Below, one piece after another: positions 463 through 15,889 of a stretch of 64,000 nt of DNA (its first letter is position 1; every line of letters starts with the position of its first letter). The position numbers were made by a program, and so were the translations under genes. The notes under the pieces are model-generated. The model was given only the letters and a program-made list of their open reading frames with translations, was not told the DNA's origin and searched no databases. This DNA comes from Noviherbaspirillum saxi (GTDB lineage: Bacteria; Pseudomonadota; Gammaproteobacteria; Burkholderiales; Burkholderiaceae_D). The stretch is from contig NZ_QYUO01000001.1 of the NCBI RefSeq assembly GCF_003591035.1, positions 1,488,001 through 1,552,000 on the forward strand. Reading direction: 5' to 3'.

Positions 463-774
463 ATGCGTTTAATCACCGTCAGTCTTGCGGCATTACTTAT
501 CCTGATCCAGATCCCTTTGTGGATGGGTAAGGGAGGGTGGTTGCGTGTATGGGATCTGGACAAGCAGGTTTCCGCGGCTCAGAAGAAGAACGAAGAACTC
601 AAGGCCCGTAACGCGAAGCTTAATTCCGAAGTCAAGGATCTGCGGGATGGCACCGGCGCCGTTGAAGAACGCGCCCGTTATGAGCTGGGCATGATCAAGG
701 ATGGCGAGATTTTTATCCAGATTCTGCAGCCGAATGGTGCTCAGCCTGCCCCGGCTAGAGCAGTTTCACCCTGA
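463..774 (+). CDS. ftsB: Cell division protein FtsB
   Basis: Small bitopic inner-membrane protein of the divisome, forming the FtsQ-FtsL-FtsB subcomplex. 103 residues: short cytoplasmic start, one membrane segment at about residues 5-22 ([18 protein letters not shown]), then a coiled coil at about 30-63 with heptad-like Lys/Glu/Leu content, then the conserved [16 protein letters not shown] region typical of FtsB. Position after eno supports the call. The last six or so residues (ARAVSP) and the stop codon are encoded by the left arm of a palindromic repeat element (755-916), so the C-terminus seems to have been replaced or extended by the repeat. No Shine-Dalgarno sequence is visible. Confidence 0.93.
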
Positions 775-916
775 CTTGCCAGGCGAGGCCGAGGCGATTT
801 GGCTGTGGAACAAGGCGCGGCGACGCGACATGGCTAGCCATGGCAAGGAGGCGTAACGCCGTGCCGCAGGCAAATCGTCCGGCATCGACGGCACAGTCAG
901 GGTGAAATTGCTCTAG
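755..916. repeat. 162-bp palindromic repeat element
   Basis: The two ends are inverted copies of a 22-bp sequence (left 755-776, containing GAGCAGTTTCACCCTGACT; right 895-916) with one mismatch. The centre is a perfect 14-bp palindrome, CATGGCTAGCCATG (829-842), exactly midway between the ends, and much of the intervening sequence is imperfectly self-complementary (for example GGCGATTTG against CAAATCGTCC). The whole element would fold into one long hairpin. It has no coding capacity. The left arm contains the ftsB stop codon. A solo copy of one terminus lies at 15871-15889, so this is a dispersed repeat, MITE-like or REP-like. Confidence 0.8.
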
Positions 917-985
917 CGTCGCCCCGGCCCCTCAAGCTGACTGAAATCAACTACTGCGTACGCTCACTAAGACCTCAGCCCGTCA

Positions 986-1921
986 TTAATGTTTTACATT
1001 GCCTGCCGGTTGAATTGCATCGCTGGTATGTTCCGTGGCGAACAACTGCGCACAATCCACCTTATCGAAGTCATAATGCTGGCCGCAAAAATCGCAGTCG
1101 ATTGCCAGTTTGCCCAAGTCCTCCAGAGCGGAATCGACCTCCGGCTTGCCCAGCATCTTGAGCATGTTGCCGACTTTCTCCCGATTGCAGCTGCAATAGA
1201 ATGAGGGATGGCGCGGCTCGAATACGCGTATCGTCTCTTCCCAGAACAGTCGATGCATCAAGGTGTTGATATCGGTCGCCAGCATTTCATCCCTGCGTAG
1301 CGTCGATGCAAGCATCACGGTGTGATGCCAGGCTTCCGCATCCTCGCTGCCCGGTGCGCCGATTCCGCCTTCCTTCGGCAGTTTCTGTAGCAGCAGGCCA
1401 CGCGAGACCGTCGCGTCCGCTGCCAGCCAAAGCTTGGTATCAAGCTGTTCGGAGCGCAGCATGTAGTTTTCGATCACGACCGCGACCGTATCGCCGTCCA
1501 GCGGTACGATGCCCTGGTAAGGCTGCTGGCCAGGCAGTTTTTCCTTCGGGTCCAGCGTGATGACGAAACGACCGTGGCCGTGAAGATTCACCAGTTCCGT
1601 CAGCGTAGCGTCATCGGCGATCACGACGTCGTCAGCCAGTTTTGCCGTCGCACGCAACTGCAGGTCCGAATCGCATTCCACGACCAGCAGACGTACCGGC
1701 CCATCACCATGCATCTGCATGATCAACATGCCGTTGAACTTGAGATTGGCCGACAGCAAAGCTGCCGCCGCTATCATCTCGCCCAGCAAGGTGCGGACAG
1801 CGGTGGGATAAGCTTTCCGCGCCTGCACTTGTTTCCAGGTTTCCGAGATTTCGACAAATTCACCGCGTACGGCGGCATTCTCGAAAATAAATCGTTGCAG
1901 CGTATCCATTGTTTCCATCAT
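986..1921 (-). CDS. hslO: Redox-regulated holdase chaperone Hsp33
   Basis: Cytoplasmic chaperone activated by oxidative unfolding. 311 residues from the first ATG. The N-terminal domain starts METMDTLQRFIFE; the C-terminal zinc switch has all four cysteines: C243 and C245 (FYCSCNREKVGNML) and C276 and C279 (CDFCGQHYDF). The open frame continues about 87 codons upstream into the next gene, but that part is a shadow. The ATG at 1921 overlaps the TAA of the upstream carbonic-anhydrase-like gene as TAATG, indicating translational coupling. ATGs at 1918 and 1909 are alternative starts. The two genes form one leftward operon. Confidence 0.95.
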   Translation of the reverse strand: MMETMDTLQRFIFENAAVRGEFVEISETWKQVQARKAYPTAVRTLLGEMIAAAALLSANLKFNGMLIMQMHGDGPVRLLVVECDSDLQLRATAKLADDVVIADDATLTELVNLHGHGRFVITLDPKEKLPGQQPYQGIVPLDGDTVAVVIENYMLRSEQLDTKLWLAADATVSRGLLLQKLPKEGGIGAPGSEDAEAWHHTVMLASTLRRDEMLATDINTLMHRLFWEETIRVFEPRHPSFYCSCNREKVGNMLKMLGKPEVDSALEDLGKLAIDCDFCGQHYDFDKVDCAQLFATEHTSDAIQPAGNVKH

Positions 1922-2445
1922 TACCCGATTCGTTTTAACTCTTGCTTGAACAGTTGGCCGCGCTTGACGTAATTGCCCGTGTTGCGATGCATGCGCGCTA
2001 TGTCTTCCTCGTTCAGCGTGCGAACCGCCTTGGCCGGCGAACCGATGATCAGGGAGTTGTCGGGAAACTCCTTGCCTTCGGTGACAAGGGCGCCAGCACC
2101 GACCAGGCAGTTCTTGCCGATTTTTGCACCGTTGAGGATGACGGCCTGGATGCCGACCAGCGAGCCTTCGCCTATCGTGCAACCATGCAGCATGGCTTGA
2201 TGGCCCACCGTGACGTTTTTGCCGACAGTCAACAGATAGCCGGGATCCGTGTGCAAGATGCAGCCTTCCTGGACATTGCTGTTTTCGCCGATGGTGATTA
2301 ATTCGTTGTCGCCCCGTATCGTGACGTCGAACCAGATGCTTGCGTTGGCTTCGACCTTCGCCTTGCCGATGATGTTCGCCGTATCGGCAATATATGCGGA
2401 TGGGTCAATATCGGGGACATGCTCGCCCAATTGGTAGATGGCCAT
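1921..2445 (-). CDS. Gamma-carbonic anhydrase family protein (YrdA/PaaY type)
   Basis: Left-handed beta-helix protein of 174 residues built from hexapeptide repeats (for example IGKAKVEANASIW, IGEGSLVGIQAVILNGAKIG). The three histidines expected to bind the catalytic metal are present at about H65, H82 and H87 (ILHTDPG, VGHQAMLHGC). Members have weak or unproven carbonic anhydrase activity and some are acyltransferase-like, so the reaction is uncertain. It is the first gene of an operon with hslO (overlap TAATG). Start ATG at 2445 is preceded by GGAAATAC, a weak ribosome-binding site. Confidence 0.88.
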   Translation of the reverse strand: MAIYQLGEHVPDIDPSAYIADTANIIGKAKVEANASIWFDVTIRGDNELITIGENSNVQEGCILHTDPGYLLTVGKNVTVGHQAMLHGCTIGEGSLVGIQAVILNGAKIGKNCLVGAGALVTEGKEFPDNSLIIGSPAKAVRTLNEEDIARMHRNTGNYVKRGQLFKQELKRIG

Positions 2446-15863: not shown

Positions 15864-15870
15864 CTTGGAT

Positions 15871-15889
15871 TCAGGGTGAAACTGCTCTA
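15871..15889. repeat. Solo terminus of the palindromic repeat
   Basis: TCAGGGTGAAACTGCTCTA is a 19-bp exact match to the reverse complement of the left arm of the element at 755-916. No second arm and no internal part of the element is present nearby. Like the full copy it sits at the 3' end of a gene. Confidence 0.75.

Follow-up and report, generated by a model that had tools for sequence, protein, structure and literature searches.

A short non-coding repeat at the 3′ end of ftsB in Noviherbaspirillum saxi: probable IS630-type MITE with a Correia-like hairpin core

The division gene ftsB of Noviherbaspirillum saxi ends inside a palindromic repeat, which raises the questions of what kind of element this is, how it came to lie there and what it carries at its center. 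The locus is part of a 64,000-bp stretch of one contig (here called the window) in a genome of 6.5 Mb in three contigs. The element is very probably (about 0.92) a non-autonomous MITE whose TAGAGCAnTTTCACCCTGAC ends are used by an IS630-type enzyme and which entered the 3′ part of ftsB through a CTAG site. In this mechanism, a transposase would recognize the TAGAGCAnTTTCACCCTGAC ends, insert the element at CTAR and duplicate the TA. One copy would have used such a CTAG close to the 3′ end of the gene; the reading frame now continues into the left arm, from which ftsB takes five residues and its stop codon.

The element at the end of ftsB

As first drawn, the copy at ftsB covers positions 755..916 (162 bp). 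The left terminal inverted repeat (755..776, + strand) contains a TAG and, in a different reading frame, a TGA, and it matches the right terminal inverted repeat (895..916, − strand) over 22 bp with one mismatch, just as the initial annotation had it. The 14-bp palindrome CATGGCTAGCCATG (829..842), which had been placed at the exact center of the element, does lie there; it is the longest perfect palindrome and forms the apical stem-loop of a hairpin core. This core (811..861, + strand; CAAGGCG...GCAAGGAGnnGnAACGCCG) is about 51 bp long and of the Correia kind, as judged by pattern scan, alignment and a covariance model (52 bits). The mobile unit is best bounded at 756–915 (160 bp, TA-GAGC...GCTC-TA) with TA as the duplicated target; the flanking C at 755 and G at 916 are then bases of the target site and not of the element. 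The left TA (756..757) and the right TA (914..915) would be the two halves of the target duplication at ftsB, as suggested by a filled/empty pair of another copy and by flank tallies.

The inverted arms reach 38 nt at 82% identity, and as RNA the element is predicted to fold into one long hairpin (−106 kcal/mol; shuffle mean −58.7, z −11.3, none of 200 shuffles as low). The DNA fold of the element strand gave −65 (z −12.0). The element is short and lacks coding capacity, as had been noted; near-full copies measure 162–184 bp. The element region has no match in Rfam (E up to 1) and none in plasmid records, and no terminator or promoter consensus was found at the ftsB copy when window positions 600–1100 were scanned. 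A conserved GCAAGGAGG at 843–851 includes a Shine–Dalgarno-like AAGGAGG.

The gene itself (463..774, + strand) has 103 codons and is matched in 37 of 40 genomes, the own genome included. Its last five codons and its stop lie within the element: the frame ends ...ARAVSP* on a TGA (772..774, + strand) in the left arm, which bears out the proposal that this arm encodes the end of ftsB. When the element and one TA are removed, the frame runs to 107 residues and ends SVAPAPQAD; FtsB proteins of 107 residues also occur in the genomes G002 (same genus), G009 and G010. The insertion would so have exchanged nine residues (SVAPAPQAD) for RAVSP, and the C-terminus can be regarded as replaced, as had been suspected. 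C-terminal FtsB tails vary across the 29 non-window loci (30 loci were read), so the exchange affects a part of the protein that differs among relatives anyway, and nothing points to harm. The comparison with relatives that had been called for places the element at ftsB in the window alone: BLAST found it at none of the 29 other loci, with at most 1.5 kb covered on either side, and the window's own locus was the sole match. The convergent neighbor (986..2182, − strand) is a mechanical open reading frame whose true start probably lies within it, and which we take to be Hsp33/HslO. Elsewhere in the window, an end-motif search found a lone element end, TAGAGCAGTTTCACCCTGAA, at 15870..15889 (− strand), just after a TAG; it seems to be what is left of a copy that was deleted, and the nearby TAG may be the stop codon of another gene.

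Copies, target site and stop codons

A search of the own genome, which had been proposed as a check, returned 34 near-full copies, 77–100% identical to the query and spread across the three contigs, together with partial copies. With these copies and with the other ftsB loci free of the element, neither of the outcomes named beforehand as refuting was seen. Their lengths fall into classes of 162–163 bp (20 copies) and 176–178 bp (12 copies), with single copies of 167 and 184 bp. Element-end motifs with up to three mismatches number 76, against two for the reversed control pattern, and the multi-copy status of the element exceeds chance. Some match to the element is present in 13 of 60 genomes searched, the own genome included. 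Full-length copies occur in four genomes of the same genus (G008–G011) and weaker copies in two other genera (G029 and G031), whereas the matches in G002, G004, G005, G007, G021 and G032 comprise the central 50 bp only, accompanied in G002 by 27 bp of one end.

A longer subfamily (L016, L018–L026, L029–L031 and L034) carries about 15 extra bases near GGCCTCGGCGGCCCC on the 3′ side of the core. These bases interrupt the core in 14 of the 34 own copies (all those of 176–178 bp and the single ones of 167 and 184 bp), which score at most 32 bits with the covariance model or are missed, whereas the other 20 score above 47 bits. The core of the ftsB copy is uninterrupted. Thus, the element family tolerates an interrupted core. 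In L001–L034, the left and right ends of one copy are more alike (20.1 of 22 bases identical) than ends of different copies (18.7; 0 of 10,000 permutations), a likeness that subfamilies or arm-to-arm correction could explain. In G010, one copy (L072:2959–3242) is apparently split by an unrelated palindromic repeat, GGCTGTGTTTGG...CACAGCC, as in a nested insertion.

A C precedes the left TA in 33/34 own copies and in 23/24 copies from relatives, and a purine (A or G) follows the right TA in 32/34 and 23/24, respectively; these flanks define the target as CTAR. For one copy the duplication can be read directly. The filled site in G008 and the empty sites in G009 and G010 lie between the same two convergent genes and are 88% identical over 520 bp, and the alignment sets C-TA-element-TA-A against a single CTAA, so that the filled site exceeds the empty ones by the element and a second TA. 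Both overlapping stop codons of the two genes are retained at the filled site. The target-site duplication for which a check had been advised is therefore seen in G008; at ftsB itself, the TA duplication is inferred.

The target also bears on the position of the element at a stop codon. In 11 of the 34 copies (L003, L004, L005, L010, L011, L012, L018, L020, L022, L024 and L033) a credible coding frame ends on the first TAG of the element, and ftsB is the sole accepted case of a stop in another frame of the element (TGA). The frames listed number 22, apart from five others: L014L, L033R and L034L were excluded as likely shadows of genes on the opposite strand, and no verdict was given on L068R and L070R. 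At two of the 11 loci, comparison with relatives agrees with the TAG having replaced a native stop. The product of L018, presumably a cardiolipin-synthase-like protein, has an end (...YWL*) common to 13/14 relatives; at L022, which we take to encode IspH, the proteins of relatives stop only a few residues away. CTAR bears a stop codon on one or both strands. Because it contains TAA or TAG and because both element ends begin with TAG, a stop codon is remade at insertion. The CTAR/YTAG sites of the window, with those inside genes set aside, comprise 10 at stop codons and 34 other intergenic ones, which gives an expectation of 23% (P 0.23 for at least 10/34 copies, P 0.13 for at least 11/34). A preference for stop codons beyond the target motif was rejected on these values. 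The pattern is attributable to the CTAR target and to the loss of insertions inside genes, with no excess. A CTAR target combined with ends that start with TAG thus gives a simple account of elements that sit on stop codons.

A candidate IS630-family partner

A candidate source of the enzyme is present in the same genus. An IS of 1057 bp occurs five times in the genome G002, and no copy departs from a chosen reference copy by more than two bases (0–2). It is bounded by TAGAGC...GCTCTA and encodes HTH_33 and DDE_3 domains in two frames, as in the IS630 family. The two ends of this IS are unlike each other. Its right end matches the left end of the MITE at 24 of 28 bases, compared with 16–20 of 28 for the other three combinations of ends; the best match of the MITE right end is 19/28. 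Related IS copies occur in G008, G009 and G010, and in G009 one IS has its insertion point precisely at the TA that ends a short MITE. The own genome has a decayed relative only, frame-broken and with an unrecognizable left end. This was the sole close match to the transposase query there, and no intact partner IS was found in that genome, so its copies of the MITE may be relics. An IS630-family IS would have supplied the transposase, and movement would have occurred in trans. The covariance model detected no core in 15 IS loci tested; the MITE is therefore not a simple deletion of the G002 IS. The idea that the core is a leftover of the IS was likewise rejected.

The element thus combines the marks of a MITE: it is short, non-coding and multi-copy, it has terminal inverted repeats, it shows a TA duplication (at one copy other than ftsB) and its ends match an autonomous IS. 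With the IS630 family it shares one end and the target of the 1057-bp member from a sister species, but it has no gene, and the tested IS loci have no core. The closest precedent in logic is RUP of Streptococcus pneumoniae, described as a non-coding MITE with ends like those of IS630-Spn1 and insertion at TA (PMC2229807, PMC3049150). Both are short elements with IS630-type ends, a TA target and a DDE_3 partner (intact here only in sister species). RUP is 107 bp long and AT-rich, and the comparison with it covers the ends and the target.

Two other readings of the repeat have to be set against transposition by an IS630-type enzyme. The initial annotation had left the choice between a MITE-like and a REP-like element, and only the first part stands, carried by the TA duplication, the terminal inverted repeats and the IS630 end match. 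A REP/BIME-type repeat spread by a RAYT (IS200/IS605-like) enzyme, instead of a transposon with terminal inverted repeats, would likewise be palindromic, non-coding, mostly intergenic and present in many copies; REP/BIME units, however, are much shorter, depend on other enzymes and have no TIR/TA transposon structure, whereas the present element has defined length classes, long terminal inverted repeats and a TA duplication. A RAYT-spread repeat is accordingly very improbable. It is also unlikely, if less remote, that the repeat is primarily a terminator or mRNA 3′-end hairpin that serves the host, is selected at gene ends and spreads only incidentally. The very stable hairpin, the copies that end a gene frame on TAG, the 13 of 37 regions with convergent gene calls and the reported cutting of Correia RNA by RNase III (PMC2649163, PMC10969869) would all suit such a role. 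Yet the share of copies at stop codons stays within the CTAR expectation, the ftsB copy lacks a terminator or promoter consensus match and the ftsB loci of relatives do without the element.

The hairpin core across lineages

MITEs are often regarded as IS ends around an arbitrary filling. Here the filling is the conserved part, for a similar core is present with different ends in many lineages. A pattern for 811–861, with lengths of 44–74 bp allowed, was run over 84,980 species genomes and found at least 119 stretches, with 124 matches among those listed. Among the matches listed, the core occurs in Neisseria (N. gonorrhoeae, N. sicca, N. bergeri, N. viridiae, N. polysaccharea, N. dentiae and another), in Vogesella, Aquitalea, Chromobacterium, Janthinobacterium, Massilia, Herbaspirillum and Noviherbaspirillum, in Pseudomonas, Cardiobacterium, Azoarcus, Polaromonas and Hydrogenophaga, and in MAGs titled Gallionellaceae, Acidimicrobiales and others, whose contigs may be misbinned. 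Four of the 119 loci (L192, L213, L231 and L278) were judged by eye to be chance hits and dropped. The covariance model recovered the core in 13/114 genomes of the class, the own genome included. At the gathering threshold, Rfam returned only a tRNA and a tmRNA for 16 of the 119 core loci.

Except in N. dentiae, the Neisseria elements among the matches listed have TATAGTGGATTAA ends; they are AACAAAAA or AAATTTAAA variants, and their core edges are TCAGGACAA and CCGGTACGG (or CCAGTACGG). The same variants and core edges are given for Correia elements in one account (PMC2649163), which also names lengths of 104–108 and 153–157 bp as the most common and presents the mover as undetermined; IS1106 was once suggested (PMC3898611). 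Like the Correia (CREE/NEMIS) elements of Neisseria, the family of the ftsB element has a TA duplication, long inverted ends, a hairpin and the same kind of core. The two differ in that Correia ends are 26 bp and of the TATAGTGGATTAA type, whereas those of the ftsB element begin CTAGAGC (CTAGAGCAnTTTCACCCTGAC), and the ftsB family is mostly 162–163 or 176–178 bp long. RNase III processing and IHF binding are further Correia traits. No link between the Correia core and other genera was found in the titles and abstracts covered, and a literature search for printed core strings gave only an unrelated match. Other groups among the matches listed have ends such as CTAGTGTCGCAAACC, CTAGTGGTGTGTC, CTAGTGGCCTGTG, CTAGAAACCGC and further types, and at some of these core loci no clear transposon-like end was seen.

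The likeness between these cores might in principle reflect convergence, or a pattern that fixes both sides of the hairpin. The pattern does fix many bases, four of the listed loci look like chance and the strict match occurs in only 4 of 249 genomes of the phylum, the own genome included; the reversed pattern, however, occurs in none of the 249, and 121 of the 124 listed matches are 50–55 bp long where 44–74 was allowed, many of them between long inverted arms. The stem was examined in 61 cores, namely the window's and those of 60 of the 119 loci picked by hand at about one per organism label (the remaining loci were the four chance hits and loci from organisms already represented). The modelled core has GCG paired with CGC, a three-base bulge and then four pairs; seven pairs only were modelled because no single register fits the apical stem of all families. 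Two of the pairs vary: both are standard in 22/61 cores and form a tandem G.A in 16/61, so 38/61 fall into one of these two classes, whereas 10,000 shuffles averaged 12.4 and never exceeded 23 (26/47, mean 8.1 and maximum 18 after near-identical cores were merged). The other 23/61 belong to neither class, and at these two pairs a partner shifted by +2 yields more paired cells (65) than the true register does (55), but over all seven pairs the true register is 81% paired and the slid versions at most 49%. An alignment that took 38 of the 61 cores, with two Neisseria rows off by one column (alignment A1), gave a covariation score of 0.122 versus 0.064 (0/500 shuffles), and all slid versions scored lower. 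Pairs changed on both sides gave no covariation support (444/500 shuffles as high) and further pair types no significant support (27/500), and the relatedness of the sequences can inflate covariation counts. Convergence or artefact is an unlikely explanation. Families found later in the own genome have CAAA/TTTG and CGAA/TTCG at the variable positions.

Within the own genome, the core is present with five end-types, four of them besides that of the ftsB element. Of these four, TAGAGCCTGTTATGAAC ends enclose 271 bp and TTAGAGCGGATTGCGG ends about 280 bp, while TTAAGGCTACGCTGAATAAG ends occur on three copies of about 165 bp and TAGTGGGTTACTTGGC ends on an element of 164 bp. Four loci there from core-bearing MITE families with other ends (L345, L347, L348 and L349) read GCGAGGAT in the core in place of GCAAGGAG, with matching changes on the partner strand. 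One of the two large own forms (L346), as well as L071 in G005, is about 270–280 bp long and holds two cores in opposite orientation.

Ends were also compared with local IS630-type elements elsewhere. A DDE_3 search of the 13 genomes behind 14 core loci found a match in six (five over the cut-off) and none in seven. In Cardiobacterium valvarum, the ends of the core-bearing element agree at 23/28 bases with those of an IS present there in many copies, and P. lopnurensis has three IS loci, one of which agrees with the ends of the core element at 22/28. The Correia end of N. sicca matches a gonococcal IS end at 21/27, N. sicca itself having no DDE_3 match; for the Correia end seen in the gonococcus, the gonococcal IS end scores only 15, and the Cardiobacterium IS does equally well (15–17). 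Cross-pairings among the Noviherbaspirillum, Cardiobacterium and Pseudomonas ends score 8–12, and Cardiobacterium versus Neisseria IS ends score 16–18. No end match turned up at two Gallionellaceae IS loci, at one from Acidimicrobiales, at the other two P. lopnurensis loci or in a fragment from N. viridiae. The view that the ends follow the IS630-type element of the same genome or genus would rest on three good pairs (Noviherbaspirillum, Cardiobacterium and Pseudomonas), the Neisseria pair being weak.

The core would be a retained module, most likely either an RNA hairpin that is processed or protected or a DNA hairpin that aids movement, and cutting by RNase III, as reported for Correia RNA, is the first candidate for its role. 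A broader proposal is held tentatively, at clearly less than even odds: the core may be an ancient, portable and selected module of a MITE superfamily whose ends change to suit the IS630-family transposase of each host, with IS630-family enzymes as the missing movers of Correia elements. The superfamily would then span the Correia elements of Neisseria, the Oxalobacteraceae, Pseudomonas, Cardiobacterium and some actinobacterial MAGs. The odds are lowered by the 14/34 own copies with interrupted cores and by the 7/13 core-bearing genomes that lack a DDE_3 match. If the proposal were true, the hairpin, as RNA or as DNA, would be a device that helps gene-less elements to spread or to be tolerated. 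A conserved core makes it testable which enzyme moves Correia elements and what the core of a MITE does. In Neisseria viridiae (L307), a TA within a Correia element marks the start of an IS630-like element whose end resembles Correia ends.
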